Shown here in pieces: positions 1,194 to 16,892 of a DNA stretch of 20,093 nucleotides. A program made the position numbers and the translations under genes. The notes beneath the pieces are model-generated. The model ran no database searches. It had not been told where the DNA came from and saw only the letters and a program-made list of their open reading frames with translations. The DNA comes from a virus. Position 1 is the stretch's first letter, and every line of letters starts with the position of its first letter. The stretch covers positions 1-20,093 of IMG/VR virus record IMGVR_UViG_3300032893_002216; one strand, 5' to 3'.

Positions 1194-1198
1194 GAAAG

Positions 1199-1254: not shown

Positions 1255-1259
1255 GGGAA

Positions 1260-1587: not shown

Positions 1588-1588
1588 G

Positions 1589-1604: not shown

Positions 1605-1637
1605 AATCGGGCGCATGTGCATTCGGCAAGTTTACCG

Positions 1638-1666: not shown

Positions 1667-1672
1667 GTGCCC

Positions 1673-1915: not shown

Positions 1916-2000
1916 CGCTTCCACGGACCGCGGATTACATTCCCACTGTCGCGAAGTAAGTTGCGTTTGCGTCCAGATGCATCACCCTGGGCCTTTTGGA

Positions 2001-2806: not shown

Positions 2807-2820
2807 AGTGGGGGATAACG

Positions 2821-4185: not shown

Positions 4186-4373
4186 TGCCGAGCCATTCAG
4201 TCAAGCAAGCGAAGACCATGAGTGCGATCGCCCATGGTTGGCATCCAACGGGTAAGGCAGCTGATATCCCCGTATCGGTTGCCAAGGAATTCCACCAGGC
4301 AGATGCCGGCAAGAAATACGGCGCGAGACCCAAGTCGAAGGCGCATCATCTCGCAAAGGCAATGAAGGGCTAA
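4185..4373 (+). CDS. Small basic phage protein
   Basis: The 62-residue product (MPSHSVKQAKTMSAIAHGWH, then IPVSVAKEFHQADAGKKYG) matches a recurrent small phage protein pattern: S.KQA..M.A.AH, a GIP-like loop, then VAKEF..AD. The function of this group is unknown to me. It is basic and histidine-rich, and could bind DNA. Its start overlaps the upstream stop by one base (TAATG), and its stop directly abuts the TTG start of the four-cysteine gene. Confidence 0.7.
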   Translation: MPSHSVKQAKTMSAIAHGWHPTGKAADIPVSVAKEFHQADAGKKYGARPKSKAHHLAKAMKG

Positions 4374-4541
4374 TTGCAAGGCAAGCGTGACAAGCCCAGT
4401 GTTCATTATCGGGATGCGACAGGTTCAAGGCGCTGCGGGACCTGTAAGTATTCCTACGGACCGGACGACAACAGGCAATGCAAACTGGTGATGGGCAAGA
4501 TTCATTCAGACGATGTCTGCGATCTCTGGGAACATGACTAA
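4374..4541 (+). CDS. Four-cysteine small protein, iron-sulfur/HiPIP-like pattern
   Basis: A 55-codon frame starts with TTG immediately after the upstream TAA, with an AGGG element 5 bases before it. The product has CGTC at residues 21-24, C36 and C49, in the context RRCGTCKYSYGP, QCKLVMGKI and DVCDLWEHD. This C..C-(11)-C-(12)-C pattern resembles small phage proteins related to high-potential iron-sulfur proteins, and the four cysteines could hold an iron-sulfur cluster or zinc. The alternating GKI/VCDLWE ending supports a real family. The TTG start is forced because no ATG or GTG gives the complete motif. The stop overlaps the next gene by 8 bases. Confidence 0.7.
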   Translation: MQGKRDKPSVHYRDATGSRRCGTCKYSYGPDDNRQCKLVMGKIHSDDVCDLWEHD

Positions 4542-4767
4542 CAACGATCTCTACAAAGGCTTGTTCGATGAGCTCCACGCCCAGGGAGCATTGCTGAGCA
4601 ATATAGCGGCCGAGATAGAACACCACGGGCGCAATAACCAGCAAATGCAGGACTGGGCGAATAGATTGTACACTCTGGCGCATTCGGCGACGAGGTTATC
4701 CATCATCCGCCCTACGCAGCTGCCATTCGATTCGATGCGTTCTGTCGAGATGCGATCACAGCCTTGA
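4534..4767 (+). CDS. Small phage protein of unknown function
   Basis: The 77-residue product from ATG 4534 (MTNNDLYKGLFDELHAQGAL, then LSNIAAEIEHHGRNNQQMQD) has a helical N-terminal half. A GGGA element precedes the start. An earlier in-frame ATG at 4513 would overlap the upstream gene more deeply, so 4534 is preferred. No domain, signal or membrane segment is recognised. It overlaps the following coiled-coil gene by a TTGA stop/start junction. Confidence 0.5.
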   Translation: MTNNDLYKGLFDELHAQGALLSNIAAEIEHHGRNNQQMQDWANRLYTLAHSATRLSIIRPTQLPFDSMRSVEMRSQP

Positions 4768-4988
4768 GCACAGTCGATAAACTCGCCTTGATCGTCTCAA
4801 GGCGCCAAGATCTTGAAAAGCAATTATCAGACGCTGCAGATCATCTCCTCCAAAGGTATGACGCAGCTCCTTCAAAGGCACAGCAGGCCTTCGCAAAGCA
4901 TCATGCAAAGCTGGATGCGGAGGACAAATCGCTTCAAGACCTGGAGCATGCGATCGATGCCCTCTCAAACGACCCTTTAGGGCAATAG
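4764..4988 (+). CDS. Small coiled-coil protein with TTG start
   Basis: The frame starts with TTG overlapping the upstream stop (TTGA). It encodes 74 residues that are almost wholly helical and charged (VDKLALIVSRRQDLEKQLSD, then HHAKLDAEDKSLQDLEHAID), as expected for a coiled coil. No ATG or GTG start exists that would keep the heptad region intact. Its stop abuts the acetyltransferase start. The gene order just before the terminase might suggest a packaging or scaffold-related role, but nothing in the sequence shows this. Confidence 0.55.
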   Translation: MSTVDKLALIVSRRQDLEKQLSDAADHLLQRYDAAPSKAQQAFAKHHAKLDAEDKSLQDLEHAIDALSNDPLGQ

Positions 4989-5402
4989 TTGGTTACCTTA
5001 AGACCCGTAGGGCTACACGACTGGCAATTCCTCTATGATCTCCTCGCTGAAAGACCCAAGGAAGCCAACATCAGCCACAGGCAAATGCCCTCGATCGCAG
5101 AGCATGTCGCATTTCTGCGTTCAATACCCTACGCAGCCTGGTACATCGTTGAACATGACCACAAGCCAGCAGGCTCGATATACCTGTCAAAGCAAGACGA
5201 AATCGGCATCGCAATACATTCAGGTTTTCAACGCCTTGGTCTTGCCAAACAGGCCATTGAAGAGCTCATGCGCCAGCACCCAAGACCCAGATACCTCGCA
5301 AACATAGCCCCACTAAACCACATGAGCCAAAAGCTCTTCGCAGAACTAGGCTTCAACTTGATACAGCAGACATTCGAGAAGCATGGCAGCTCGAACACGT
5401 AA
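4989..5402 (+). CDS. GNAT family N-acetyltransferase
   Basis: The 137-residue protein has the GNAT layout: an N-terminal VTLRPVGLHDWQFLYDLLAE, a central AWYIVEHDHKPAGSIYLSKQ, the acetyl-CoA binding stretch SGFQRLGLAKQAIEELM (the R/Q..G.G/A motif), and the C-terminal NHMSQKLFAELGFNLIQQTF. The family moves an acetyl group from acetyl-CoA to an amine. Close relatives act on ribosomal proteins (RimJ/RimL) or on amino sugars (PseH in pseudaminic acid synthesis). The nonulosonate-type genes downstream make an amino-sugar substrate attractive, but this is inference. The start is a TTG directly after the upstream stop. It overlaps the terminase small subunit gene by 20 bases. Confidence 0.8.
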   Translation: MVTLRPVGLHDWQFLYDLLAERPKEANISHRQMPSIAEHVAFLRSIPYAAWYIVEHDHKPAGSIYLSKQDEIGIAIHSGFQRLGLAKQAIEELMRQHPRPRYLANIAPLNHMSQKLFAELGFNLIQQTFEKHGSSNT

Positions 5403-5691
5403 AATACGCCACGACGACAATACACGAGCCAAGATCAAGGCAAGTCAGCTCATAAATCGCTTGCAAGATCATTTCCTTGGCAAAGTGGAGCTGTCAGCTA
5501 CACAGGCAAATGTGGGGTTGGGGCTGCTACGGAAGATCCTGCCCGATCTGGCAGCCACAGAGCTGTCTGGTGAAGTAGCACGGACTACAGTCATCCGAGC
5601 ACCTGAAACCGTAGCAGATTCAAGGACATGGCTAGAGAAGCATGCGCCTGGTCGCGATGATGCTGAGCCCAAGCCTGATCAGGTCAACTGA
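5383..5691 (+). CDS. terS: Probable terminase small subunit
   Basis: The 102-residue protein begins MAARTRKIRHDDNTRAKIKA. It continues SQLINRLQDHFLGKVELSAT, then QANVGLGLLRKILPDLAATE and LSGEV. A basic N-terminus and an ASQLINRL...LGKVELSATQ...LLRKILPDL core followed by ELSGE is a pattern I know from genes directly upstream of phage terminases. Small subunits recognise the packaging site and recruit the large subunit. It starts inside the GNAT gene (20-base overlap). Two short direct repeats lie at its 3' end (5688-5706), possible binding sites. Confidence 0.75.
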   Translation: MAARTRKIRHDDNTRAKIKASQLINRLQDHFLGKVELSATQANVGLGLLRKILPDLAATELSGEVARTTVIRAPETVADSRTWLEKHAPGRDDAEPKPDQVN

Positions 5692-5706
5692 CGCACAGCT
5701 GACGCA
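5688..5706 (+). repeat. Short tandem direct repeat at the terS 3' end
   Basis: CTGACGCA occurs twice (5688-5695 and 5699-5706) with a period of 11 bases, about one helical turn, overlapping the terS stop codon. A one-turn spacing would place both copies on the same DNA face, as expected for terminase or regulator binding. No binding protein is shown by the sequence. Confidence 0.4.
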
Positions 5707-5924
5707 TGGCAGCGCTAAGCCAATGATTTCATTGTATGTCCGTTACCTTAGTAAGGAATTGCACGGTGTTGTGTCAGGACCAGCCTATGGTGGAGACCCG
5801 GGGGTAGGTCGGCCGGGGTTGGGAGTCCCGTTACCCGGGGGAGTCACTATGCGTACCCCCGCCCCTATAAAAAACCCCCAACCGCTGTCGATCCTACACA
5901 GTCTAACTCAGTAGACTCTACGCA
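5692..5924 (+). other. Repeat-rich non-coding region, candidate packaging (cos/pac) site
   Basis: This 233-base gap between terS and the next gene is the longest non-coding stretch in the rightward part and holds dense repeats. ACCCGGGGG occurs at 5796-5804 and 5833-5841. The inverted repeat CGGGGG/CCCCCG lies at 5836-5841 and 5856-5861. GGTTGGG at 5817-5823 pairs with CCCAACC at 5877-5883. AGTCTA/TAGACT form a 6-base-arm palindrome at 5900-5917. A 90-codon frame crosses it but has no protein-like features. The location next to both terminase genes fits a cos or pac site. A promoter or leader structure for the terL operon is the alternative. Confidence 0.5.
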
Positions 5925-5942
5925 ATGGCAGTCGATCCTACA
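5887..5942 (+). repeat. 12-base direct repeat flanking a palindrome
   Basis: GTCGATCCTACA is present at 5887-5898 and again at 5931-5942, 44 bases apart. The second copy lies inside the first codons of the 5925 gene. The palindrome AGTCTA-N6-TAGACT lies between them. The arrangement resembles a protein-binding site with flanking repeats. Confidence 0.5.
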
Positions 5943-6179
5943 GAGTTGTTAGCCATAGCCAGCCGGGTCAAGCGTGATACGCGGAACCGGGACATCTTGG
6001 AGTTATGTGAGGCGGTCTTGTCTTGGAAGGGGGTGGTGCCAACTGTATCCAAGCAATCCAACATCTCTGAGATCAGGCCCCGGTTGATAGCCGGGGCCGC
6101 AAGGTGTCCTGAGTGTACTCGGCGTCGGTCCATGAGAACTGCATCGCAGCGGAAATGGCGAAAGAAGCGTACGAAGTAA
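5925..6179 (+). CDS. Small basic protein upstream of the terminase large subunit
   Basis: The 84-residue product begins MAVDPTELLAIASRVKRDTR. It continues NRDILELCEAVLSWKGVVPT, and has a basic C-terminus with a CPEC motif (residues 61-64, RCPECTRRRSMR). The KRDTRNRDILELCEAV helix followed by C..C and an RKWRKKR tail suggests a nucleic-acid-binding protein. No named family is recognised. It overlaps the terL start by 25 bases. No strong ribosome site precedes the ATG. A second, DNA-contacting terminase accessory is possible from its position only. Confidence 0.6.
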   Translation: MAVDPTELLAIASRVKRDTRNRDILELCEAVLSWKGVVPTVSKQSNISEIRPRLIAGAARCPECTRRRSMRTASQRKWRKKRTK

Positions 6180-7651
6180 TCTGGGCACCTCAGTCCGGGC
6201 CTCAGACGGCCTTATTGAGTTGTGAGGTGTTTGAGGTGTTCTTTGGGGGTGCTCGTGGGGGTGGGAAGACGGATGGGATGCTGGGGGATTGGATCAGCCA
6301 TTCCGACCAATATGGGGCGAATGCTTCGGGTCTGATGGTTCGACGGTCTTTGAAGCAGTTGGAAGACACCATCAAGCGATCGAAACAGCTTTATTACAAG
6401 TTGGGGGGGAAGTACAACGAGACGAGTAAAACGTGGGTTATGCCCGGGGGAGGCCAGTTGAAGATGGCCTACCTTGAACGGGATGAGGACGCCCAGAATT
6501 ATCAGGGTCACAGCTACACGAGGATCTATGTCGAGGAGATCGGCACTTTCCCCAGTCCGGACCCTATTTTTAAGCTCATGGCTACTTTACGCAGCGGCTC
6601 CGGGGTGCCTTGCGGGTTCCGTGCCACAGGCAATCCTGGCGGGCCTGGCCATCAGTGGGTTAGGGCTAGGTATATTGACCCTGCTCCGGGAGGTTGGAAG
6701 CTTGTGGAGGAGGCGTTTGTCAACCCTTTCACTGGCGATTCTATTAGCCGGGAGCGTGTATTCATCCCTTCAAGGGTGACTGAGAATAAATACCTGGGAA
6801 CCGAGTACATCGCCAACCTCCAGATGGTTGGAAGTAAGAACCTTGTAAGGGCCTGGCTGGAGGGGGACTGGTCGGTCATTGAAGGGGCGTTCTTTCCTGA
6901 ATTCTCTGAGGCTCGTCATGTCATTCTTCCGTTTAGAATACCGGATGACTGGCTTCGTTTTCGCAGTATGGATTGGGGAAGTGCTTCTCCTTTCAGTGTC
7001 GGATGGTGGGCTGTGGCCAGCGAGGATCATCGCCTTCCTGACAAGCGCATTATTCCTAGGGGTGCTCTGGTTCGTTACCGCGAATGGTATGGAGCCTCCA
7101 AACCGAATGTCGGGCTGAAACTCACCGCGGAGGAAGTAGCCGATGGGATCAGACTTAGGGAGTCAGGAGACCCCAAGATCAGTTATGGAGTTCTTGATCC
7201 GGCAGCTTTTGCTGTCGATGGAGGTCCCAGTATCGCCGAACGTATGGGTAAACGTCAGATTTACTTCCGAGGGGCTGACAACAAACGTATTGCCTCCCGA
7301 GGAGCTCTTGGCGGATGGGATGCTGTCCGTGCAAGACTTAAAGGGGACGACCATCCCGGCATCTTCTTCTTCGACACCTGCGTAGATTCGATCAGGACCC
7401 TTCCTGCCCTTCAACATGACCCCGACAGAATGGAAGACGTCGATACCGAGGGGGAGGATCATGCCCCTGATGAAATCCGCTATGCCTGTATGTCCAGGCC
7501 TTACGCCAGAACGTCTTCCGAATATTCCACCTATGAGGGACCAAGTCCACGGGGACCTGTCCAGATGAAAGCTTTTCCGGTGAGACAGCCCACCCTGGAA
7601 AACCTCTGGTCCGAGGCGGAACGCAACTATCCCAGGTCGAGGCGGATTTGA
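6155..7651 (+). CDS. terL: Terminase large subunit (ATPase/nuclease)
   Basis: The 498-residue protein is the DNA-packaging motor. The Walker A motif GGARGGGKT is at residues 31-39, and the Walker B-type RIYVEEIGTF at 123-132 contains the catalytic acidic residue. ATGNPGGPGH (157-166) is the coupling segment. The C-terminal RNase H-like nuclease has acidic residues in SMDWGSASPF (D273), GVLDPAAF (D348) and HAPDEIRYACM (D439). The length is usual for the family. The start at 6155 (MAKEAYEVIWAPQSGPQ) was chosen over an ATG at 6113 because the family-like sequence begins there. The two genes overlap by 25 bases. It is followed by a TTGA overlap with a tiny membrane protein. Confidence 0.93.
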   Translation: MAKEAYEVIWAPQSGPQTALLSCEVFEVFFGGARGGGKTDGMLGDWISHSDQYGANASGLMVRRSLKQLEDTIKRSKQLYYKLGGKYNETSKTWVMPGGGQLKMAYLERDEDAQNYQGHSYTRIYVEEIGTFPSPDPIFKLMATLRSGSGVPCGFRATGNPGGPGHQWVRARYIDPAPGGWKLVEEAFVNPFTGDSISRERVFIPSRVTENKYLGTEYIANLQMVGSKNLVRAWLEGDWSVIEGAFFPEFSEARHVILPFRIPDDWLRFRSMDWGSASPFSVGWWAVASEDHRLPDKRIIPRGALVRYREWYGASKPNVGLKLTAEEVADGIRLRESGDPKISYGVLDPAAFAVDGGPSIAERMGKRQIYFRGADNKRIASRGALGGWDAVRARLKGDDHPGIFFFDTCVDSIRTLPALQHDPDRMEDVDTEGEDHAPDEIRYACMSRPYARTSSEYSTYEGPSPRGPVQMKAFPVRQPTLENLWSEAERNYPRSRRI

Positions 7652-7770
7652 AGTCGGATTTCCCATCGTTGAATGACGACAAGGAACTTGAGAAGTTTAT
7701 TGGCTGCGTTCTTCTCGTCACTGCCTTGGTAACGACTGCAGTCTACTTCTTGGTCTACTTCTTCACATGA
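7648..7770 (+). CDS. Tiny membrane protein between terL and the enzyme cassette
   Basis: A 40-residue frame starts at TTG overlapping the terL stop (TTGA) and ends with an ATGA overlap to the aminotransferase gene. The product has an acidic N-terminus (SDFPSLNDDKELEKF) and one hydrophobic helix at about residues 20-39 (IGCVLLVTALVTTAVYFLVY). GAGG lies 5 bases before the TTG. It bridges the two genes exactly, so it is probably translated. A single-pass inner-membrane protein is predicted. A holin-like role is possible but unsupported. Confidence 0.65.
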   Translation: MKSDFPSLNDDKELEKFIGCVLLVTALVTTAVYFLVYFFT

Positions 7771-8930
7771 GATACCAAAAATCCCAAGAAGAGCTCCAGC
7801 GGGTCAAGCAGATCATCCCGCTGGCCTCCCAAACGTTTTCCAAGGCCTATAACCGGTGGCCGAAGCAGGCCCCGCATTTTCTTTCTCATGGTAAAGGTGG
7901 GAGAGTCTGGGATGTCGATGGCAACCAATACGTTGATCTCGTCTCGGCACTCCTGCCAAATGTCCTGGGGTACTGCGACCCTGACGTTGACCAGGCCGTC
8001 ATCGATCAGCTGGGGAGAGGCATTAGCTTTAGTCTGCCCACTCTGTCAGAAGTCGCTCTTGCCGACCGCCTCGTTGAGTTCATTCCATGCGCTGAAATGG
8101 TCCGGTTCGGTAAATCAGGGACTGATGCCACCTCAGCAGCAGTCCGACTCGCGCGTGCAGTCACAGGTCGCGACCACATCATCATGTGCGGATACCACGG
8201 CTGGCAAGACTGGAGCATAGGGCAGGCTGACAATCTCGAGAACAGGAAGGGTGTGCCGCGTTCAGTTCGCGAGATGACCACCCAGATCAGGCCTGGTGGA
8301 ATCAAGTGGATCAATCATGTAAATCCTCCAGCCGCCATCATCGTGGATTGTTCGAAAATACAGTTTCATGATGCAAGGCAGTTTCGCGATCTAGCAGATG
8401 ACTGCGGAGCTCTCCTCATCTTCGATGAAGTCATAACGGGGTTTCGATGGGATATCGGGGGAGCTCAATCGGTCTGGGGTGTGAAACCTGACCTTGCCTG
8501 TTTCTCAAAGGCGATGGGAAACGGGATGCCGATCTCTGCGATCGTCGGTCGTGCCGATCTCATGAAGAACTTTGACCATGTCTTCTTCTCCGGAACGTTT
8601 GGTGGGGAAACCCTGTCCATAGCAGCAGCGATCGCCTGCATCGACAAGATCGAACGTGAGGACGTTTGTGAGAAGTTGTCAGTTTCCGGTCGCCTCCTGA
8701 AAGCTGAATTCGGCTCCTCTGATCAGGTCTGGCTGACCGGCCATCCCGCGTTCCAGCAACTGAACTTTGCCTCAGCGGAGGTCAGGGCTGCCTACCTCAC
8801 CTCCATGCTGGAACGCGGGATCCTCGTTAATGCGTCCCTCAACGTCTGCTACGCCCACAACCGTTCCGACCTGATGCAGGTGATCGACGCCCACCACGCC
8901 TCCTTGGAGGCTCTTAAAGTCGCGGCTTGA
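7767..8930 (+). CDS. Class III PLP aminotransferase, glutamate-1-semialdehyde aminomutase-like
   Basis: The 387-residue enzyme shows the class III pattern: VWDVDGNQYVDLVSALLPNV (48-67), cofactor-phosphate loop GKSGTDATSAAVRLARA (115-131), YHGWQDW (143-149), the FDEVITGFR motif with the PLP-contacting aspartate (219-227), and the Schiff-base lysine in CFSKAMGNGMPISA (K248). The closest pattern is glutamate-1-semialdehyde 2,1-aminomutase, but this protein is roughly 40 residues shorter than the usual form. GSAM-like enzymes occur in bacterial surface-sugar clusters with SpsF- and NeuB-type genes, where they probably aminate a sugar, so a tetrapyrrole role is unlikely here. It starts with an ATGA overlap and leads the enzyme cassette. 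The substrate is not evident from the sequence. Confidence 0.88.
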   Translation: MRYQKSQEELQRVKQIIPLASQTFSKAYNRWPKQAPHFLSHGKGGRVWDVDGNQYVDLVSALLPNVLGYCDPDVDQAVIDQLGRGISFSLPTLSEVALADRLVEFIPCAEMVRFGKSGTDATSAAVRLARAVTGRDHIIMCGYHGWQDWSIGQADNLENRKGVPRSVREMTTQIRPGGIKWINHVNPPAAIIVDCSKIQFHDARQFRDLADDCGALLIFDEVITGFRWDIGGAQSVWGVKPDLACFSKAMGNGMPISAIVGRADLMKNFDHVFFSGTFGGETLSIAAAIACIDKIEREDVCEKLSVSGRLLKAEFGSSDQVWLTGHPAFQQLNFASAEVRAAYLTSMLERGILVNASLNVCYAHNRSDLMQVIDAHHASLEALKVAA

Positions 8931-9451
8931 AGTACGAACCTCGACATCTCGCGCAGGCTCTCCCTGAGGAGCAGGTCAGGGATCCCTTCATCAGGAAGTT
9001 GAAACGCGGCTTTCCCCAAAAGGCCAAGTCGGAACGGCATACGCCCGAGGAGTCCTGGGGGTTTCATCTCCTGATCGATTGCCTTGATATGGACGACGAA
9101 ATCGATGACGAGAAAGACATCGAGGCGTTCTTTACCGAGCTGATCCAGGCTTTGGACATGAAACCCCTGTCGGAATTCTTTTGCGTCAGGGTCGATAATG
9201 AAGAAGGCCGAGGTATCTCTGCGTTCCAGATGATCACGACATCCCACATTGCCATGCACTTCGATGACGACGGGCATAACGGGTTCATGGACGTGTTTTC
9301 TTGTAAGAAGTTCGATCCCAGGATCGTTCTTCAGATGATCGAGAAGCACTTCAAGCCTGACAACATGATGGTGCAGTTCGTTTATCGGGATACGGGTATT
9401 GTCGTCGGACCCGATGACAAGAACGACTATGAGATGCACAACACCATATGA
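8927..9451 (+). CDS. SpeD-type pyruvoyl decarboxylase homologue (AdoMet decarboxylase family)
   Basis: The 174-residue protein carries WGFHLLIDCLDMD (44-56) followed by the processing region TTSHIAMHFDDD and GFMDVFSCKKFDP. Relative to Thermotoga SpeD (Ser63, His68, Cys83), the serine that becomes the pyruvoyl group (S106), the histidine (H111, +5) and the cysteine (C126, +20) are all present at the right spacing. The residue before the serine is Thr instead of the usual Glu. SpeD makes decarboxylated AdoMet for spermidine synthesis, but some homologues are known to have become arginine or ornithine decarboxylases, so the substrate is open. There is an extra N-terminal stretch of about 40 residues. 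The start is TTG overlapping the aminotransferase stop (TTGA), and the stop overlaps the pentein gene (ATGA). Confidence 0.85.
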   Translation: MKYEPRHLAQALPEEQVRDPFIRKLKRGFPQKAKSERHTPEESWGFHLLIDCLDMDDEIDDEKDIEAFFTELIQALDMKPLSEFFCVRVDNEEGRGISAFQMITTSHIAMHFDDDGHNGFMDVFSCKKFDPRIVLQMIEKHFKPDNMMVQFVYRDTGIVVGPDDKNDYEMHNTI

Positions 9452-10284
9452 TCACGCCTTCCAGATGGAATGGCCCCGTCTTCCTGATGAACTTCCCTAT
9501 TTCAGTGTCAAGTGACGTTCCCAACAACGCCCTTATGCGTCCGGGTACGATCTACGACAAGAAGAGGGCCTGCGATCAGTGGCTGGAGTTCTATCGAATA
9601 ATGACCGGGGAAGCGCTGGTCTACGTTTTACCCGGACATGATCACCTCCAAGACCTTCCCTTCGTCGCAAACCTCGGTTGTTATCTCCCGCATATCAGAA
9701 ATGACGACGTTGTCCTTCTTTCGAACTACACGTCAGAACCAAGGATAGGTGAGGAGAGGTTCGGGTTCCGCTTCTTCAACAGCTTCGATTACAGCGTTGT
9801 TCAATCCCCCTATTGTTGGGAAGGGGAAGCCGATCTCAAGTGGATCAGGGACAACATCTATATCGGTGGTATCGGGATGCGCTCCACCCCTGATGCTTAC
9901 AAGTGGATGCGATTGAATTTCGACATGGACGTTCACGAGATCAAAATAAACGATCCAAAACTCTATCACCTCGACTGCGTTCTTCTTCCGCTCAGTGAAA
10001 ACAAGGCTCTTGTGAACGTGTCCGTCGTTGACAAGAAAGACCTGAAGACCCTGGAAAGCCTGGTCGAGGTCATCCCGGTCCCGAAAGAGTATGTTTATCA
10101 GGGTTGGACGAACAGCATCATTCTGAACGGCATCGTCATGCATTCACCTGCCGACAAGCCGATCACGCCGTTCGCAGATTTGTTGGACAAGCACGATCTG
10201 AAACTTGCTACTTTTGATCTCACAGAGTTCGACAAGTCGGGAGCGGATTTGTCATGTCTGGTGATGCACATGAACTACAGATGA
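9448..10284 (+). CDS. Pentein-fold guanidino-modifying enzyme (amidinotransferase/DDAH-like)
   Basis: The 278-residue protein has the pattern of the arginine-modifying pentein superfamily. It has an N-terminal VFLMNFPISVSSDVPNNALM (11-30), FVANLGCYLPH (72-82), the substrate-acid motif WEGEADLKWIRDNIYIGGIG (124-143), the catalytic histidine segment LYHLDCVLLPLSENKALV (172-189, H174 and D176), and a C-terminal nucleophile cysteine in GADLSCLVMHM (C270). The His, acidic and Cys residues are all present, so an active enzyme is expected. Family members use a Cys-amidino intermediate to hydrolyse or transfer the guanidino group of arginine, agmatine or methylarginine. It is translationally coupled to the SpeD-like gene upstream and the aldo/keto reductase downstream (ATGA overlaps). 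Either an agmatine-type step or amidination of an amino sugar is possible. Confidence 0.8.
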   Translation: MITPSRWNGPVFLMNFPISVSSDVPNNALMRPGTIYDKKRACDQWLEFYRIMTGEALVYVLPGHDHLQDLPFVANLGCYLPHIRNDDVVLLSNYTSEPRIGEERFGFRFFNSFDYSVVQSPYCWEGEADLKWIRDNIYIGGIGMRSTPDAYKWMRLNFDMDVHEIKINDPKLYHLDCVLLPLSENKALVNVSVVDKKDLKTLESLVEVIPVPKEYVYQGWTNSIILNGIVMHSPADKPITPFADLLDKHDLKLATFDLTEFDKSGADLSCLVMHMNYR

Positions 10285-10952
10285 GAATCGGTCTCGGCAC
10301 GGCGCAGTTCGGGTCTCCTTACGGGATTACGAACAAGGGCCAGCCTTCCCGCAAGGAGTGCGAGAAGATCGTTGAAACTGCGCTCGATGCCGGGATCGTC
10401 TATTTCGACACGGCCGCCTATTACGGGGAAGCGGATTTGATCCTCTCCTCCCTCCTTCCCAGTGAAGGCGTCCGTGTCGTGACCAAGGTCAAAACACCCA
10501 GCGAAGTCCAACAGTCCGTCGATCTCTTCGGAAGAAATCTCTGGGGCATCCTGAGTGATCGGTTCATAGCTGAAGGTATCAGGTCTGGGATTTCCGTTTA
10601 CTGGCCGATCAAGATCGATCCAACAGCACAAATCGTGCAGATGCCCCTGAACATCGCGGATCCCCGAAATCTTCCCTTGTTACGTCTGTACAAGGCCCAG
10701 GACACGGAAGTCCACGCCCGTTCTGTCTTTCTTCAAGGGCTTCTTCTTCAGAGAGGGGCGACCATCAGACAGTGCCTCAAATACGTCCTTGATAAGCCCG
10801 TCGATGTCGCCCTGGTAGGAGTGAACTCAGCGGACGAGCTGAAGGAAATCCTGGAGGCTGTCGAAACCCTCGAACAGGAAAAATGCACAGATATTCCCTT
10901 TATCGAGCCTGAAATGCTTGATCCCAGAGGATGGCCAAATGCCAACAATTAG
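10281..10952 (+). CDS. Short aldo/keto reductase
   Basis: The 223-residue protein begins MRIGLGTAQFGSPYGITNKG, then VYFDTAAYYGEADLILSSLL, and later IVQMPLNIADPRNLPLLRLY and VDVALVGVNSADELKEILEA. These are the hallmark segments of the NAD(P)H-dependent aldo/keto reductase barrel. Asp43, Tyr48 and Lys69 of the catalytic tetrad are present. The segment that normally holds the fourth residue (LLHD) is reduced to NLWGILSDRF with no histidine, and about 60-80 residues are missing compared with typical members. Such reductases accompany GSAM-, SpsF- and NeuB-type genes in bacterial clusters. The start at 10281 forms an ATGA overlap. An altered reaction, epimerase-like or non-redox, is possible. Confidence 0.82.
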   Translation: MRIGLGTAQFGSPYGITNKGQPSRKECEKIVETALDAGIVYFDTAAYYGEADLILSSLLPSEGVRVVTKVKTPSEVQQSVDLFGRNLWGILSDRFIAEGIRSGISVYWPIKIDPTAQIVQMPLNIADPRNLPLLRLYKAQDTEVHARSVFLQGLLLQRGATIRQCLKYVLDKPVDVALVGVNSADELKEILEAVETLEQEKCTDIPFIEPEMLDPRGWPNANN

Positions 10953-11283
10953 CCCGTTCACACCACAAACAGGAAGCGCGGGATCTATCGCCGTCATCGC
11001 TTCGACAAGCGCTTCCCTGCTTCAGTTACCCTTCGGAGGTGGAAGCCAGATCAGGGTCGCCAACTCCGCATCAATTCCAACCTATATGGATTTCGGGGCA
11101 TCAACCGTTGTTGCTTCAGCATCTACTCCGGTTGGAATCATGATGAATCCGACATCCACGCAAATCTTCACGTTTGACACCATCGCAACAGGAACGGCAG
11201 GCAGCAAGACGCAGTATGTCTCTGTCATCGCGAGCGCTGCTACTACTACCCCGATCATCTTCACCCGGGGTGAAGGTTTTTGA
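10939..11283 (+). CDS. Small beta-rich protein, probable virion decoration protein
   Basis: The 114-residue product begins MPTISPFTPQTGSAGSIAVI. It is dominated by Ser, Thr, Ala, Gly and Val in beta-strand-like runs (QIRVANSASIPTYMDFGAST, TPVGIMMNPTSTQIFTFDTI, KTQYVSVIASAATTTPIIFT), has no cysteine and no membrane segment, and is poor in charge. This is typical of small capsid decoration or head-surface proteins with a jelly-roll-like fold. It overlaps the reductase gene by 14 bases and the cytidylyltransferase start by a TTGA junction. It therefore sits in the middle of the sugar-enzyme genes, which raises the idea that it is what gets decorated. Confidence 0.6.
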   Translation: MPTISPFTPQTGSAGSIAVIASTSASLLQLPFGGGSQIRVANSASIPTYMDFGASTVVASASTPVGIMMNPTSTQIFTFDTIATGTAGSKTQYVSVIASAATTTPIIFTRGEGF

Positions 11284-11873
11284 GGACTGTCGCCATCATA
11301 CAGGCGCGCATGGGATCGACTCGACTGCCCCGTAAAGTGCTGATGGATCTCGGTGGCAAGCCTGTCCTGAAATGGGTGTTCGACGCTGCAAAGGCTGCAA
11401 AGCTCGTTCATCATGTCGTAGTAGCCACTCCGGACTATGAGATCGTTGAGTTCTGTGATGCAAACGAAATCCCATGGAGCATGGGTCCTGAGGACGATGT
11501 TCTCGAACGGTTCATCATTGCGGCAGAACATACCAGAGCAACCAAGATCATCAGGTTGACTGCTGACTGTCCCTTCCTTGATCCTGAAATCATCGATCAG
11601 TGCATCCTTCTCAATGAAAGCGCTGTCGATGAATGGCCCGATGGAATGGATGTTCAGGTCATCGATCCCAGATGGCTGCCAATGGGGGACAGAGAACACG
11701 TCGTTCCCGTCAAGAACAACCTTCCCCAGCTGGCCTGTCCTGTGGGGAATATGAGGCACGTCAGGGTGACCCTTGATACGCCTGAAGACCTTGAACGCTG
11801 TAGAACTATGGCGAAGTTTCTTCCGAAAAACCGACCTCCTAAATGGAGGGAGACGATCTCTGCGCATGACTGA
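11280..11873 (+). CDS. spsF: SpsF-type cytidylyltransferase
   Basis: The 197-residue protein starts with the CTP-binding signature IIQARMGSTRLPRKVLMDLG (6-25). It continues with VVVATPDYEIVEFCDAN (46-62), EDDVLERFIIAAE (71-83), the RLTADCPFLDP motif with the metal-binding aspartate (92-102), GMDVQVI (122-128) and DREHVVP (137-143). This is the CMP-Kdo/CMP-sialate synthetase-like SpsF family, expected to activate an acidic sugar as its CMP derivative. It is roughly 40-50 residues shorter than usual SpsF proteins, mainly in the second half. The start is TTG overlapping the decoration gene stop (TTGA). It overlaps the NeuB gene by 8 bases, so synthase and activating enzyme are translationally coupled. 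Confidence 0.88.
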   Translation: MRTVAIIQARMGSTRLPRKVLMDLGGKPVLKWVFDAAKAAKLVHHVVVATPDYEIVEFCDANEIPWSMGPEDDVLERFIIAAEHTRATKIIRLTADCPFLDPEIIDQCILLNESAVDEWPDGMDVQVIDPRWLPMGDREHVVPVKNNLPQLACPVGNMRHVRVTLDTPEDLERCRTMAKFLPKNRPPKWRETISAHD

Positions 11874-12492
11874 AGTCGTCGCTGAAATCTCCGGAAATCA
11901 TGGCGGCTCGATCGTTCATGCACTTGAGCTCATCACGAGAGCAAAGCTGGCCGGTGCAGATTCCGTCAAGTTCCAGTGCTTTGATCCCCAGAAACTCGCG
12001 GAAAAACGTTCGAAAAACCCTGAAGTCCTGAAGTTAGTAAATGGTGCTCCCCTCCTTGATCTATATCGCAAAACTCATACTCCGAAAGAGTGGTTTCCGC
12101 GGTTGATCAACCATGCTCGTACTCAGGATATCGCGTGGTTCTCTTCCGTGTTTGATCCCAGTGATGTCCAGTTTCTCGAAAGGCTCGAATGTCCCCGCTA
12201 CAAGATCAGCGCGTTTGAAATGCTGGACTGGGAATTGATCAGGGCGGTCACGGAAACGGGAAAGCCGATCGTGATCTCGGTCAGACCGACAGAGAAGGTC
12301 ACGGTCTTACAAGCTTCCGACTACAAGGGGATCATGAGGCCTCTTGGTGTCTCTGATCACGGTGGAAGGCTCTGGCGCAACGTTCCCATGGTGGAATGGC
12401 ACTTGAAGCTTCCCGGGGTTGAGACCTTGGACAGCGATTTTTCCCTGACTCCTGATGATATGGAGCAGCTGATTTTTGAGATGCGAGCATGA
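11866..12492 (+). CDS. neuB: Minimal NeuB-type nonulosonate synthase
   Basis: The 208-residue protein has NeuB-barrel motifs: EISGNHGGSIVHALELITRA (7-26), GADSVKFQCFDP (30-41), WFSSVFDPSDVQFLERL (91-107), PRYKISAFEMLDWELI (110-125), GVSDHGG (161-167) and a compressed MVEWHLKLPG...SDFSLTPDDME end (175-200). NeuB enzymes condense phosphoenolpyruvate with a 6-deoxy or N-acyl hexosamine to form sialic, legionaminic or pseudaminic acid. The usual enzyme is about 330-350 residues with a C-terminal antifreeze-like SAF domain. That domain is absent here, and a barrel stretch (the LLHC.S.YPTP region) is also missing. Activity is therefore uncertain. The start at 11866 gives an 8-base overlap with spsF. 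The stop overlaps the dehydratase start (ATGA). Confidence 0.85.
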   Translation: MTEVVAEISGNHGGSIVHALELITRAKLAGADSVKFQCFDPQKLAEKRSKNPEVLKLVNGAPLLDLYRKTHTPKEWFPRLINHARTQDIAWFSSVFDPSDVQFLERLECPRYKISAFEMLDWELIRAVTETGKPIVISVRPTEKVTVLQASDYKGIMRPLGVSDHGGRLWRNVPMVEWHLKLPGVETLDSDFSLTPDDMEQLIFEMRA

Positions 12493-13340
12493 AGATTCTC
12501 GTTACCGGAGGTTCAGGTTCGTTCGGCCAGTCCTTCGTGCGTCGAATGTTGCATAACTGGGATTGCACGCGTGTCGTGGTTTTTTCGAGGGGCGAGCATA
12601 CCCAAGCCGCAATGGCGCAGGAATTGAACGATCCTAAACTGAGGTTCTTTATTGGCGATGTCAGAGATCGCGACAGGTTGCGCCGCGCCATGCAGGGCAT
12701 TGATACCGTGGTTCATGCGGCTGCTCTGAAGCGTATTGAGGTGGCCGAATACAATCCGCTAGAGGTCAAGAAGACGAACATTGATGGTTCTGAAAATGTC
12801 ATTGAAGCAGCGACTGATGCGGGTGTTCGAACGGTTGTGGCGCTTTCCACCGATAAGGCCTATCAACCTGTCAACTTCTACGGCGCATCCAAGTTTCTTG
12901 CGGAAGGGCTATTTCTCAAAGCGAACAATACACGTGGAACGTTTGGGCCAAGATTTGCCGTGTGTCGCTATGGTAACGTATGGGGGTCGAACGGTTCTGT
13001 GGTGCCGAAGTGGCAGGAAATCCTGAAGACATCCGACACTGTTCCAGTAACTGATCCTGATTGCACCCGCTTCTATATGACTCTGGACGAGGCCGTCGAT
13101 CTGGTGGTTAGGGCCATCAAAGATATGAAGGGCGGTGAAACCTTCATCCCAACTCTTCCTGCTTATCGTCTTGGTGACCTTGCCGAGGCCATGGGTGCGA
13201 AGATCAAAGTTCTGGGTCTTCCTGACTGGGAAAAGCGTCACGAGTCCATGGGGCCTGGCAATTCCAGCGACAAGGCGCGTAGGATGAGCGTTGAAGAGCT
13301 CCGCGGCATCCTGGGTATAACGGTCGCCAAAGCGGCATGA
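12489..13340 (+). CDS. pseB: UDP-N-acetylhexosamine 4,6-dehydratase (PseB/FlaA1/CapD type)
   Basis: The 283-residue short-chain dehydrogenase has the NAD(P) motif VTGGSGSFG (5-13), VVHAAALKRIEVAE (74-87), the STDKAYQPVNFYGASKF segment (120-136) with Asp122-Lys123 and the Tyr131-x3-Lys135 pair, CRYGNVWGSNGSV (159-171), and a late LPDWEKRHESM. This is the polysaccharide biosynthesis dehydratase group that removes water from UDP-GlcNAc to give a 4-keto-6-deoxy sugar, the first step of pseudaminic acid synthesis in PseB. Inverting and retaining versions cannot be told apart by eye. It is shorter than the roughly 330 residues usual for PseB. It overlaps the neuB stop and the portal start (both ATGA). 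Confidence 0.87.
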   Translation: MKILVTGGSGSFGQSFVRRMLHNWDCTRVVVFSRGEHTQAAMAQELNDPKLRFFIGDVRDRDRLRRAMQGIDTVVHAAALKRIEVAEYNPLEVKKTNIDGSENVIEAATDAGVRTVVALSTDKAYQPVNFYGASKFLAEGLFLKANNTRGTFGPRFAVCRYGNVWGSNGSVVPKWQEILKTSDTVPVTDPDCTRFYMTLDEAVDLVVRAIKDMKGGETFIPTLPAYRLGDLAEAMGAKIKVLGLPDWEKRHESMGPGNSSDKARRMSVEELRGILGITVAKAA

Positions 13341-15718
13341 ACGATCTTTTCGATCCTGACGACGAGTCGATCAAGGACGACCAGACAGCTGGCGCCTACT
13401 GGAAGTGCGAGATCGATCGCTCTCAGAAGGAGTTCAAGACGTATTGGGAGAAGTGCGACAAGATTGCCAAGCGCTATCGTGACGAGCGCGACCAAAACCG
13501 GGAGAACGCAAAACGCTTCAATATCCTGTGGTCGAACATCCAGACCATGAAGCCGGCGGTCTATGCCAAGGCGCCGAAGCCGATCATTGAGCGACGCTTT
13601 CTTGAACGTAATGATATCGAGCGCGTTGCTGGTATTGCTCTTCAGCGTGCTGTGGCAGTTGAGATCGAAACAAGCGACTTTGAGGAGGCGGTCGGCGGTA
13701 AGCAGGGTGCGGTTATGGATTACCTGCTCTACAGCCGCGGCATGGTATGGCTCAGGTATGAAGCTGATCTCAACACTGAGGACGAATCCACCCCTCTTAC
13801 TGATATTCCAGAAGGCAATGACGAAGTTGAACAGGAGGAAACAAGTCTTCCCACTGTTACAGCCGAGCGAATCTGCATCGACTACGTCCACAGAAAAGAT
13901 TACCTCTGCGATCCCGCCAGAACCGAACAGGAATGCCGATGGAAAGCCAAGAGATCATGGCTGACGAAACGACAGGTCAAGGACAAGTTCGGGGATGAAA
14001 TCGCAGGTAAAGTGGAATATCGCCAGATCAACGATGACGATCGTTATGACGACAAGCAGGCCCCGAAAGAAAGACGAGCAGAGTTCTGGGAAATCTGGGA
14101 CAAGGTCCGCCGAAAGGTATGGGTGATCAACACCGGCTATGACGGGATCTGCAAGGTTACAAAAGACCCCCTTGGACTGAAGAACTTCTGGCCGTGCCCG
14201 AGGCCTCTCTATGGCACGATGACGGATGACAAGCTGGTCCCGATTCCAGATTATATCGAGTACCAGGATCAGGCCGAACAGCTCGATCAGTTGTCTCAAA
14301 GGATCGACAAGATCACCCAGGCCATCAAGGCCGTTGGTTTCTTCGATGCTTCCCAGCCCGAACTGGGACGTTTGTTCGAATTCGGAACAGACAACAAGAT
14401 GGTGCCGTGCGAGACATGGGCCGTCATGAAGGACAAGGGCGGTCTAGCAGGGAGCGTAGACTTCTTCCCGCTGGACATGCTGATCAAGACGCTGGAAACC
14501 CTTCAGACGGTCTTTGATAGTCAGTTACAGCGCCTCTATGAAGTGACCGGGATTGCCGACATCATCAGGGGCAATTCTTCCCCTGAAGAAACCTATGGCG
14601 CCCAGAAGATCAAAGGGCAGTTTGCGACCTTGAGGCTTCAGGATCGGCAGCGGGATGTCTCGCGATTCTGCCGGGATATAGTTTCGATCATGACCGAGCT
14701 GATCGCGGTTCACTTCGAACCAGAGACGATCGCGGCCATGACGGGGTTGGGGGACCAGAACTCTCCTGACGCCCAGTATTTTCAGCAGGCCATGGAGCTT
14801 GTCGGGGATGCCCGGCTTCGTTCCTTCCGGGTCGATATCGAGACGAATTCAACTATCGAGCTCGATATCAACGAGGACAAGAAGAACACCACGGAGTTTG
14901 TCAACGGCGTAGCCCAGTATTTCAACCAGATCATGCCGGCGGCGGAAAAGATGCCGCAACTTATTCCTTTGGCCGGCAACGTCCTTCTCTGGGCGATCAG
15001 GAGATTCAGGACCGGACGTGAGTTGGAAAGCGTCTTTGAACGCGCTGTTGATGATTTCACCAGGATGTCTCAGTCGGGTGCTCTGACTGTTCAACAGCCC
15101 AACCCTGAGATGCTGAAGATCCAGGCCCAGCAGCAGTCCGACATGGCCGATCTGCAGCTTCAGAGGGAGAAGATGCAGAATGATGCCCAGATGTCCGAGG
15201 CCCAGATGCGCTTCGAGATGTTGAAGCATCAGAATGACATGGCGTTCCAGCAGAAACAGCATGAAGAGCAGATGGAGCTGGAAAGGTTGAAATTGGGTGC
15301 CCAGGTCCACCTGAAGGACAAGGACATTCAGCAACAAGACAAGGAACATCAGTACGAGATGGACCTGAAGCAGGTCGATCACGCCCACGACTCGACCGAG
15401 AGAGAAAAGGATCGCTCCCACGAGTCCCTGCACAAACTGGCTGATCAAGAGCATGAAGGCAAAATGAAGAAGGAAGATCATGCTCATGAGGCCACTGAAA
15501 AGGGCAAGGATCGTCAGGCACAGTCTGAACAGGCAGACAAGACCCATTCCGCCACGGAGAAGGTCGCCAAGATCAAGGCAAATCCGAAGGGCGAGGATAG
15601 CGACTTGTCTGATCTCAAGAAGCAACTTGACGAGCTGATGAAGCACCACAAGGCACCCGTTGAAATCCTGAGGGGCAAGGACGGGAAGATCACTGGGGCA
15701 AGGCGTGTGCTGCAGTGA
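13337..15718 (+). CDS. Portal protein with long C-terminal coiled coil
   Basis: The 793-residue protein has the arrangement of a large phage portal. The N-terminal region has RFNILWSNIQTMKPAVYAKA and a clip/stem-like middle (DYIEYQDQAEQLDQLSQRID, then ALYEVTGIADIIRG-like and GAQKIKGQFATLRLQDRQRD at about 415-440). The family C-terminus PVEILRGKDGKITGARRV ends it. From about residue 588 to 770 the chain is almost only Gln, Glu, Lys, Asp, His and Met, with recurring DHAH..TE..KDR units, which predicts a long coiled coil resembling the barrel of P22-type portals. The portal forms the dodecameric DNA gateway of the head and docks the terminase. Its start overlaps the dehydratase stop (ATGA), and the stop overlaps a GTG start. 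Confidence 0.88.
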   Translation: MNDLFDPDDESIKDDQTAGAYWKCEIDRSQKEFKTYWEKCDKIAKRYRDERDQNRENAKRFNILWSNIQTMKPAVYAKAPKPIIERRFLERNDIERVAGIALQRAVAVEIETSDFEEAVGGKQGAVMDYLLYSRGMVWLRYEADLNTEDESTPLTDIPEGNDEVEQEETSLPTVTAERICIDYVHRKDYLCDPARTEQECRWKAKRSWLTKRQVKDKFGDEIAGKVEYRQINDDDRYDDKQAPKERRAEFWEIWDKVRRKVWVINTGYDGICKVTKDPLGLKNFWPCPRPLYGTMTDDKLVPIPDYIEYQDQAEQLDQLSQRIDKITQAIKAVGFFDASQPELGRLFEFGTDNKMVPCETWAVMKDKGGLAGSVDFFPLDMLIKTLETLQTVFDSQLQRLYEVTGIADIIRGNSSPEETYGAQKIKGQFATLRLQDRQRDVSRFCRDIVSIMTELIAVHFEPETIAAMTGLGDQNSPDAQYFQQAMELVGDARLRSFRVDIETNSTIELDINEDKKNTTEFVNGVAQYFNQIMPAAEKMPQLIPLAGNVLLWAIRRFRTGRELESVFERAVDDFTRMSQSGALTVQQPNPEMLKIQAQQQSDMADLQLQREKMQNDAQMSEAQMRFEMLKHQNDMAFQQKQHEEQMELERLKLGAQVHLKDKDIQQQDKEHQYEMDLKQVDHAHDSTEREKDRSHESLHKLADQEHEGKMKKEDHAHEATEKGKDRQAQSEQADKTHSATEKVAKIKANPKGEDSDLSDLKKQLDELMKHHKAPVEILRGKDGKITGARRVLQ

Positions 15719-16425
15719 AGGTTGCTTTAGTTGGTGGTGCTCCGTCCTCTCGAATGCTTGCGCCCTACAAGGACGAAAGTTGGGAAATATGGGCGACAAG
15801 TCCTTCGAACTACCAGTTACTTCCAAGGGTTGACAGGTGGTTCGAACTGCACAAGGACTTTCAGTTGTGGGGCGGGAAGCACGGTCATCCCGACCAGAGC
15901 TTCTATGTTGAATGGCTCGAACATCATTCGAAAGAGCGATTCAGGCTCTACATGCTCGACCAGGAAGACATTGCTCACGCCCATGTCTTTCCGTGGAAAG
16001 AGCTCGTTAGTGAGTTCTCACCCTATTTTTTTACGTCAACGTTTTCGTGGATGTTCGGATATGCGCTTCAGCAGGGCGCAACGGAGATCGGCATATACGG
16101 TGCTGATATGTCCACGGATGAGGAATACCGCAAGCAGCGTCCTCATTTCCAGCACTTCATCTGGCTGGCGCTGCAACGCGGTGTGAAGGTAACTGCGCCC
16201 TATGAATCGGACATCATGCAGCCGCCACCGCTTTATGGTGTCAGCTTCACGACACCCCGAGGGCGCAAGTTCGTTGAAAGAGAATATGAACTGAAGCGTC
16301 GAATTGCAGAAATGGAAGCCGAGGAAACCAAGCTGAACAAGATGAGACTTCAACTGCTCGGCTCCCTCGATGACAACGATTACATGCAGACGACGTGGAC
16401 TTCTGATCCCATAGGAGAAAGTTAA
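15715..16425 (+). CDS. Rossmann-like phage protein of unknown function
   Basis: The 236-residue protein starts with GTG (GTGA overlap with the portal stop). It has an N-terminal nucleotide-binding-like loop, MKVALVGGAPSSRMLAPYKD, then SWEIWATSPSNYQLLPRVDR and WFELH. A second alpha/beta part follows (TSTFSWMFGYALQQGATEIG, IYGADMSTDEEYRKQRPHFQ), and the end is a coiled coil (about 185-220). The GGAPSS loop and A...G..EIGIYGAD layout recall DUF115/MptE-like and some glycosyltransferase folds. Similar proteins occur near phage portals without sugar genes, so a morphogenesis role is the other option. No catalytic residues can be assigned with confidence. Confidence 0.7.
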   Translation: MKVALVGGAPSSRMLAPYKDESWEIWATSPSNYQLLPRVDRWFELHKDFQLWGGKHGHPDQSFYVEWLEHHSKERFRLYMLDQEDIAHAHVFPWKELVSEFSPYFFTSTFSWMFGYALQQGATEIGIYGADMSTDEEYRKQRPHFQHFIWLALQRGVKVTAPYESDIMQPPPLYGVSFTTPRGRKFVEREYELKRRIAEMEAEETKLNKMRLQLLGSLDDNDYMQTTWTSDPIGES

Positions 16426-16892
16426 TGCCTCAATACACTGTCATCGGTAACCAGGCCACCGTTTCGACTTCATACAAAACGGCCATTTCCGTCACTGCTG
16501 CTTCGTCTGGTACTCTCAGGCGTGGTCGTGTCTTTGACTTTTCGATCGGTCCCCAGGCGGCCCCGAACTCTACGGATTGCTCCATTCAGTGGGACTTGTC
16601 CCGCATGACTGCTTCGGGAACGGCAACCGTCTCCCTCGTCAACGCTGCAGACACCGTGGACGCCGCCTTTACCGGGCTTGGATTCTCCAACTATTCGGCT
16701 GAACCGACTGTTACCTCGTCTTCTCAGGTCTGGAACAACGGCGCCAACCAGAGAGCTCCCATGCGTTGGGTCGCTTCCGGTCCTGATGCTGAGTTCGTTT
16801 ACCCAGCGACAGCCTTCAACGGCTTCGTTCTGAGAGCGCTTTCGACGCAGTTCTCCGGTGCGGCCGGTGGGACGATCGCGGTCCGTGAGTAG
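16425..16892 (+). CDS. Beta-rich virion protein, possible head decoration protein
   Basis: The 155-residue product begins MPQYTVIGNQATVSTSYKTA. It is Ser/Thr/Ala/Gly rich with beta-strand-like runs (ISVTAASSGTLRRGRVFDFS, DCSIQWDLSRMTASGTATVS, TVTSSSQVWNNGANQRAPMR), without membrane segments. This fits a small head-surface or accessory structural protein next to the portal gene. The start overlaps the upstream stop by one base (TAATG), and an AGGAG ribosome site is 7 bases before it, one of the best in the window, so high expression is expected. It is not obviously related to the 114-residue protein at 10939. Confidence 0.7.
   Translation: MPQYTVIGNQATVSTSYKTAISVTAASSGTLRRGRVFDFSIGPQAAPNSTDCSIQWDLSRMTASGTATVSLVNAADTVDAAFTGLGFSNYSAEPTVTSSSQVWNNGANQRAPMRWVASGPDAEFVYPATAFNGFVLRALSTQFSGAAGGTIAVRE

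Follow-up and report, generated by a model that had tools for sequence, protein, structure and literature searches.

A putative pseudaminate-type nonulosonate cassette with a spliced-in probable polyamine gene pair between phage terminase and portal genes

Individual sugar-tailoring genes have been described in phages, as has phage modification of host glycans. In bacteria, the Group I polar flagellin glycosylation island of Aeromonas has the gene order pseB-pseC-aldo/keto reductase (AKR)-pseF-class III aminotransferase-pseG-pseH-pseI (PMC7874193). In Acinetobacter baumannii, the prophage-encoded EpaA/EpaB turn pseudaminate made by the host into the 8-epimer and alter the capsule (PMC12053666). 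A survey of viral polyamine enzymes reported the combination of arginase with ornithine decarboxylase solely from giant viruses, and no phage arginase (PMC9992855), and a SpeD-derived ornithine decarboxylase (SpeDC) is marked by four diagnostic residues, Gln, Thr, Phe, and Tyr (PMC10407285).

Here we analyzed a 20,093-nucleotide viral stretch (the window; IMG/VR record IMGVR_UViG_3300032893_002216). The record is a 20-kb fragment, and genes absent here may sit elsewhere in the phage genome. The window shares PseB, AKR, an SpsF/PseF-type cytidylyltransferase, a class III aminotransferase, PseI, and possibly PseH with the Aeromonas Group I island, but the fragment lacks PseC and PseG, the gene order is changed, and the PseI is compact and SAF-less; the set also lies in a phage late operon that includes a probable polyamine pair. 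As with EpaA/EpaB, the genes are phage-borne and predicted to act on pseudaminate, whereas the prophage system modifies host-made pseudaminate and has no synthesis genes (PMC12053666). A phage SpeD-family enzyme is common to the window and to described viral polyamine enzymes (PMC9992855; SpeD-derived decarboxylases, PMC10407285), although its partner here is an arginine-dihydrolase-like enzyme. Our preferred reading, to which we give a probability of about 0.5, is that the phage expresses these genes late to make a pseudaminate-type nonulosonic acid, that a separate polyamine pair is spliced into the cassette, and that the CMP-sugar is put on virions.

Gene order between terL and portal

The interval between the terminase large subunit (terL) and portal genes is occupied by seven genes for enzymes and a single small virion-like gene (Table 1). 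The first-pass annotation had described this arrangement with 4- to 14-base overlaps, and the ORF coordinates agree: from the first enzyme gene through portal, successive overlaps are 4, 4, 4, 14, 4, 14, 4, and 4 bases, the fourth (AKR gene with the next ORF) becoming 35 bases if TTG 10918 is the start. Only the junction of terL with the first enzyme gene lacks an overlap (115 bp). That annotation left two of the seven enzymes unnamed. The terL-portal spacing is 5,686 bp here versus a median of 446 bp in 37 related contigs, bearing out the earlier view that phages usually keep these genes close and that the block is an addition. Intervals above 1.5 kb occurred in 9 of the 37, and an interval about as long as this one (5,578-6,266 bp) in only three.

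Table 1. Features of the terL-portal region and flanking genes in the window.
Coordinates	Strand	Feature	Evidence
4989..5402	+	GNAT N-acetyltransferase, PseH-like candidate, upstream of terL and outside the block first annotated	Acetyltransf_1 7.8e-09
6113..7651	+	Terminase large subunit (terL)	phrog_2 1e-30 (PHROGs)
7767..8930	+	Class III aminotransferase (PRK06209/GSA-AM-like)	Aminotran_3 1.3e-44
8927..9451	+	SpeD/AdoMet decarboxylase family, pyruvoyl-type	AdoMet_dc PF02675 1.1e-17
9448..10284	+	Guanidino-modifying enzyme (GME), arginine-dihydrolase (ArgZ/AgrE)-like	NF052232 8.7e-20
10281..10952	+	Aldo/keto reductase (AKR), short form	Aldo_ket_red PF00248 5.5e-15
10939..11283 (ORF from TTG 10918)	+	Small Ser/Thr-rich (28%) virion-region protein	Composition, homologues
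11280..11873	+	SpsF/CTP_transf_3 cytidylyltransferase (PseF role)	PF02348 9.5e-26, 91.4 bits
11860..12492	+	Compact NeuB/PseI, 210 aa	NeuB 1.7e-29; PseI TIGR03586 2.3e-40
12489..13340	+	PseB-type UDP-GlcNAc inverting 4,6-dehydratase	TIGR03589 2.2e-101
13337..15718	+	Portal	phrog_12082 2e-163 (PHROGs)
15715..16425	+	Candidate nonulosonate transferase (family A3/A6), remotely GT42/MptE-like	Weak profile matches
16425..16892	+	Ser/Thr-rich (23%) virion-region protein after the candidate transferase	Composition

Nonulosonate enzymes and related cassettes

Profile searches returned the NeuB, SpsF, and PseB families, all three of which had been proposed earlier from the sequence (Table 1). The best PDB match of PseB was 2gn4 (9.1e-81), deposited as a UDP-GlcNAc C6 dehydratase, and its DKA and YxxxK region aligned; it scored 339 bits against an NCBIfam equivalog cut-off of 407.75 (~408), a shortfall due partly to its shortness. 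The SpsF-type family profile matched the cytidylyltransferase 6oew (2e-46), with the N-terminal CTP-binding QARMGSTRLPxKV motif and the DCPF of the catalytic-Asp region conserved as in CMP-sugar synthetases. The match of the compact PseI to TIGR03586 covers the N-terminal 142 of 327 model positions, and its 138.8 bits fall below the equivalog cut-off of 340, again partly through shortness. This protein stops after the barrel without the C-terminal SAF domain, as do several phage relatives, and two compact homologues are 68% and 63% identical to it. E9, N13, H14, K37, K115, E120, H167, and H181 are invariant across six phage NeuB/PseI synthases; we take these to be predicted metal- or substrate-site positions of the barrel core.

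PLP Lys248 and Asp220 of the class III aminotransferase are invariant in its alignment, and homologues of the AKR occur at 26-33% identity in bacterial Pse operons. The same enzyme set was present in bacterial operons among about 15 loci that we mapped, one of which (L269, read by eye) adjoins a Maf-like protein and flagellar genes. These loci and the published Aeromonas islands (PMC7874193) support the earlier statement that the aminotransferase and AKR accompany the sugar families. The GNAT matched no NCBIfam model, but one homologue adjoins the compact NeuB in L250 and another lies within a PtmG/HisF/NeuB/PseB cluster in L257. No DegT-type PseC was found among the window ORFs of the 20-kb fragment, and no PseG UDP-sugar hydrolase was recognized in the window. 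The class III aminotransferase, which may substitute for PseC, belongs to a different family from it, and kin cassettes have both. The proposal of a CMP-activated acidic sugar thus stands as far as the synthase, cytidylyltransferase, and PseB families go, but not as a complete route, as PseC and PseG are missing from the fragment.

Sister cassettes occur in many other soil viruses, among them a phage lineage of ~75 kb. Of the contigs from this lineage, NeuB was present in 20 of the 27 that are 30 kb or longer and in 15 of the 16 that are 57 kb or longer, usually as part of a cassette next to terL that also has PseB, a PseC-like DegT, SpsF, and an aminotransferase, yet among 50,697 annotated phage records just three had a PseI relative. 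The cassette order (L243-L261) is GNAT-SAM methyltransferase-Gfo/Idh-SpsF-aminotransferase-PseB-DegT-NeuB. Aminotransferase, SpsF, PseB, and NeuB families, proximity to terL, and the candidate transferase family are common to these cassettes and the window, with the closest NeuB/PseB relatives at 63-70%. In contrast to the window, these cassettes have DegT, Gfo/Idh, and a methyltransferase, and in those that were read completely SpsF is fused to the aminotransferase; AKR was not detected, and SpeD is absent; the terL and portal of these phages have no detectable relation to those of the window. A further phage type, L132, has a legionaminate-like cluster beside terL. Judged from gene content, the ability to make a nonulosonate seems close to a core trait in the uncultivated ~75-kb lineage. 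The sister sets in many soil viruses suggest that entire phage groups produce this sugar of bacterial surfaces on their own account. The papers that we searched describe no such phages and no pseudaminate genes in soil viruses.

Virion-region genes and proposed destination of the sugar

In L010 and L012, homologues of the small Ser/Thr-rich protein encoded within the block lie immediately 5' of portal, and we therefore regard the gene in the window as native to the virion region and flanked on either side by enzyme genes. Downstream of portal, the product of 15715-16425 is the best candidate for a transferase. Its profile matches were nearly all to CstII or Cst-I, and seven of its best PDB matches were GT42 enzymes at weak E-values (0.3-1.4). 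A PF06002 (GT42) search of the window gave no match, and no control matched either. When the A3 family was compared profile to profile with MptE-like proteins of phages, the match was colinear over 112 columns but weak (pairwise P 0.0046, probability 7.5%). NeuB and this family occur together in four phage types that differ in terL and portal (the window, the 75-kb phages, L005/L007, and L132), a co-occurrence that partly reflects lineage inheritance, L132 itself having been found with an A3 query. Among 41 terL/portal relatives, the family was present in none and NeuB in one, and a Microcystis phage in which no NeuB was found has one relative of A3. The order A3 followed by a homologue of the 16425-16892 protein recurs in most of L117-L129, and that protein is a possible acceptor.

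Two steps of the route are normally carried out by PseC and PseG. In the mechanism that we propose, PseB would convert UDP-GlcNAc to a 4-keto-6-deoxy sugar, which the aminotransferase, AKR, and upstream GNAT would tailor; the freed sugar would be condensed with PEP by the compact PseI and CMP-activated by the SpsF enzyme, the PseC and PseG steps being supplied by the unseen part of the phage genome or by the host. With its genes in the same operon as those for terL, portal, and virion proteins, the CMP-sugar would be made during particle assembly, and a late-gene transferase, for which 15715-16425 is our best candidate, would put it on Ser/Thr-rich virion proteins. The analysis shows the gene families, the predicted active-site residues, the operon layout, and the kin cassettes; the product, its time of expression, the acceptor, and the transferase are inferred. 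If the sugar is on virions, the bacterial virus would wear a sialic-acid-like coat of its own making, and adsorption, particle stability, and the evasion of surface-recognizing defenses would be affected. It is a tentative extension that several unrelated phage groups make their own pseudaminate- or legionaminate-type sugar late and attach it to virions through a new transferase family (15715-16425 and relatives), nonulosonate-coated particles being common in soil. The small SAF-less NeuB enzymes and the candidate transferase family are defined here.

The nonulosonate might instead alter the surface of the infected cell (flagellin, capsule, or LPS) through host transferases, for example to block superinfection. 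EpaA/EpaB provide a precedent in the A. baumannii capsule (PMC12053666), and flagellin glycosylation islands have this set of enzymes, but the genes lie within the late virion operon rather than an accessory lysogeny region, and the candidate transferase is in the virion block. Moreover, neither an integrase nor a repressor turned up among those window ORFs that were tested, and the first 2 kb, searched for concealed lysogeny genes, gave no family match. We consider this alternative possible but distinctly less probable, and lean towards virion decoration from the late-operon position and the recurring candidate transferase in the virion block.

It is unlikely that the cassette simply tops up a host pathway, with bottleneck enzymes raising flux to host nonulosonate for phage growth or adsorption and forming no new product. 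In favor of such a role, PseC and PseG are missing from the fragment and PseG was not recognized in those cassettes of the 75-kb phages that were read completely; however, L132 and the 75-kb phages have PseC-type aminotransferases and near-complete sets. Because Aeromonas subgroups ID and IE also lack pseG (PMC7874193), its absence is no sign of incompleteness, which argues against a top-up role.

The SpeD-family and arginine-dihydrolase-like pair

The SpeD-family and ArgZ-like genes are probably a polyamine pair rather than sugar enzymes, and would feed putrescine/spermidine synthesis. The pyruvoyl-forming Ser106, together with His107, His111, and Cys126, is kept in the aligned SpeD-family protein, whose substrate may be AdoMet, ornithine, or arginine. 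Compared with SpeDC, Gln101, Thr105, and Phe112 could fit and the Tyr was not found; Gln and Phe are also present in phiN3 AdoMetDC. The latter is a validated phage AdoMet decarboxylase. The only PDB matches of the ArgZ-like enzyme were AgrE (6lrf) and ArgZ (6jv0), and the GME catalytic Cys-His-Glu positions, predicted from the alignment with AgrE, are kept. A viral scan with this protein as query returned no relative.

The first-pass annotation treated the block as one pathway. In a reading of that kind, these two enzymes would equip the sugar with an amine or a guanidino-derived group. The pair is seamless in the operon with the sugar genes, but the SpeD family was present in none of 39 related or NeuB-bearing phages, and we therefore judge a single pathway for all seven enzymes very improbable. 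Relatives of the ArgZ-like gene were found only in Campylobacter, Bacteroides, and (weakly) Xanthomonas phages, neither enzyme occurs in the kin cassettes examined, and both have known polyamine/arginine chemistry (PMC9992855, PMC10407285). Decay of passenger genes, to which compact proteins and a partly missing bacterial enzyme set might point, is scarcely credible and was rejected, as every cassette ORF is intact without stops or frameshifts, catalytic residues are kept and conserved across the phage NeuB synthases, and further phage contigs have the compact NeuB at 45-68% identity with a dN/dS of about 0.12, indicating purifying selection and according with the earlier description of a fully integrated block.

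The terL-portal interval

Eight plus-strand ORFs fill the span between terL and the portal in the window, a complete 20,093-base IMG/VR record that is itself probably a fragment of its genome, and are joined through overlaps of 4-14 bases, with the 115 bp between terL and the first gene as the sole gapped junction. The first-pass annotation had placed seven enzyme-like genes and one virion-like gene here, and the ORF map agreed. Pfam and NCBIfam searches matched a class III aminotransferase, a SpeD/AdoMet decarboxylase family protein, an arginine-dihydrolase-like guanidino enzyme, an aldo/keto reductase, a CTP_transf_3 (SpsF-type) cytidylyltransferase, NeuB/PseI, and PseB, so the predicted NeuB, SpsF, and PseB families were all returned. 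The fifth ORF had no match in either database. Since its homologues lie directly 5' of the portal in two contigs (L010 and L012), we consider it native to this region, with enzymes on both sides.

Features of the window discussed in the text
Feature	Coordinates	Basis or position
NusG-like transcription antiterminator	3377-3910	PF02357 2.1e-13, phrog_6386
GNAT acetyltransferase	4989-5402	upstream of terL
terL	6113-7651	PHROGs
SpeD-family protein	8927-9451	Pfam, NCBIfam
Arginine-dihydrolase-like enzyme	9448-10284	Pfam, NCBIfam
Ser/Thr-rich protein	10939-11283	composition
Compact PseI	11860-12492	Pfam, NCBIfam
Portal	13337-15718	PHROGs
Candidate transferase	15715-16425	follows portal
Ser/Thr-rich protein	16425-16892	composition
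BNR/Asp-box protein	17408-19618	GH74-type xyloglucanases (best match; PDB 6p2m, E 8.1e-30)

The terL-portal distance was 5,686 bp, compared to a median of 446 bp across 37 related contigs in which both genes were found; only three of these had distances about as long (5,578-6,266 bp). Large adhesin-like genes were read by eye in this interval in relatives L054 (4273-9971), L078 (3874-9965), and L055 (3460-7080), as were adhesin-like proteins in the long intervals of L062, L066, and L077. Judging by these proteins, the interval appears to serve generally as a cargo site. The NusG-like antiterminator also occurs in L022 and L039, relatives with similar portals.

The sugar enzymes and a probable polyamine pair

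We conclude that the cassette is a genuine nonulosonate module and is intact (probability about 0.85). The proposal that the whole block serves this pathway held for five of the seven enzymes but not for the SpeD-family and arginine-dihydrolase-like proteins, which fall outside it. Bacterial and archaeal genomes were scanned with the aminotransferase family, loci were mapped with the phage proteins, and three were read by eye. A single operon in Aeromonas rivipollensis (L269) encodes PseB-PseC-AKR-SpsF-aminotransferase-PseG-PseH-PseI (AKR, aldo/keto reductase); flagellar genes and one for a Maf-like protein lie close by. Comparable sets occur in Janthinobacterium, Undibacterium, Colwellia, and Verrucomicrobiales. 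Such operons bear out the aminotransferase and aldo/keto reductase as companions of Pse enzymes. PseB, the reductase, SpsF, the aminotransferase, PseI, and perhaps PseH are common to the window and the Aeromonas operon, while PseC and PseG, both present in the operon, were not found in the 20,093-base fragment. The product is probably pseudaminate-like. The enzymes and bacterial operon are known ones; here the set sits in a phage late operon and recurs across phage groups.

At 210 aa, the compact PseI has no SAF domain. Every residue that is invariant across six phage synthases is nonetheless retained, among them the His in the S(D/A)H and E(W/Y/K)H motifs. Compact homologues occur in two other phage contigs (68% and 63%), and additional ones in L250 and L256. 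The aminotransferase retains its PLP Lys and Asp, and SpsF its CTP motif. Together with a dN/dS of ~0.12 between the window and L002 copies of PseI, with dS near saturation, these residues indicate intact genes rather than decaying remnants.

In the remaining pair, the SpeD-family protein retains the pyruvoyl-forming Ser, His, and Cys, and its phage relatives include validated AdoMet decarboxylases, as well as arginine or ornithine decarboxylases (PMC9992855, PMC10407285). The only PDB matches to its partner were two arginine dihydrolases, AgrE and ArgZ, and the Cys, His, and Glu positions are retained. The neatest reading is a putative route from arginine through ornithine to putrescine, in which the decarboxylase substrate is a candidate assignment. 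The SpeD family was not found in 39 related or NeuB-bearing phage records, which argues that such cassettes do not ordinarily include these two genes. They are likely a polyamine pair added to the nonulosonate module. Amidinotransferase-like kin of the dihydrolase-like enzyme recur in Campylobacter Fletchervirus (MT863715, 95927-96910; L112) and Bacteroides phages (MT074139, 153945-154922; L116).

Nonulosonate genes in other phages

Scans with NeuB and PseB turned up further phage contigs with such genes. A ~75-kb soil phage lineage was delimited with the capsid protein, an identity backed by PHROGs and annotated relatives, of one phage found via the candidate transferase. NeuB was present in 20/27 of its contigs of at least 30 kb and 15/16 of at least 57 kb. 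The order GNAT-(methyltransferase)-methyltransferase-Gfo/Idh-SpsF-aminotransferase-PseB-DegT-NeuB is largely kept in most of 20 mapped regions, which usually adjoin a terL of divergent orientation. The DegT enzyme best matched PseC, and one NeuB scored above the PseI equivalog cut-off. SpsF and the aminotransferase form a single ORF in six contigs (L002, L003, L004, L244, L248, and L256), linking the aminotransferase with nonulosonate synthesis. In the marine contig L132, positions 1-9450 hold a legionaminate-like cluster adjoining a virion gene and terL, its genes named by eye as NeuA-, PtmG- (amidotransferase), HisF-, LegB-, LegC-, LegG-, NeuB-, and NeuD-like. Only 3 of 50,697 annotated phage records, one a Moritella contig, had a PseI relative. 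Near-identical clusters with NeuB, PseB, SpsF, and WbqC-like genes lie upstream of terL in L005 (402-5922) and L007 (7172-12692), which come from different IMG/VR datasets.

Candidate transferase and proposed role of the sugar

The gene following the portal belongs to a family that occurs together with NeuB in four terL/portal types: the window, the ~75-kb lineage, L005/L007, and L132, which was counted despite having been retrieved with this family as query. In 41 phages related to the window phage by terL/portal, the family was not found and NeuB was present in one. Across 50,697 phage records the family appeared only once, in a Microcystis phage in which no NeuB was found. When only contigs of 30 kb or more are considered, the counts were 5/7 versus 1/24 (Fisher P 0.0007, a value inflated by shared descent). 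GT42 sialyltransferases topped all other PDB chains in profile searches at E 0.3-1.4, alone not significant, and a match to phage MptE-like proteins was colinear but weak. An MptE-like domain is present in Maf flagellin transferases. On the NeuB co-occurrence and these weak matches, we tentatively treat the protein as a candidate transferase, with the two Ser/Thr-rich proteins as possible acceptors. Phage MptE-like (PF01973) proteins lie downstream of the portal in L006 (8691-9512) and in portal relatives L018, L019, L023, L040, L051, L081, L101, L106, and L110, with two in some contigs.

Late-operon phage genes are expressed during particle assembly. An alternative role for the nonulosonate, alteration of the host surface, is rather unlikely; we favor predicted decoration of the virion, at roughly even odds. 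The BNR/Asp-box protein is likely a propeller, virion-borne or released, that would degrade or bind glycans.
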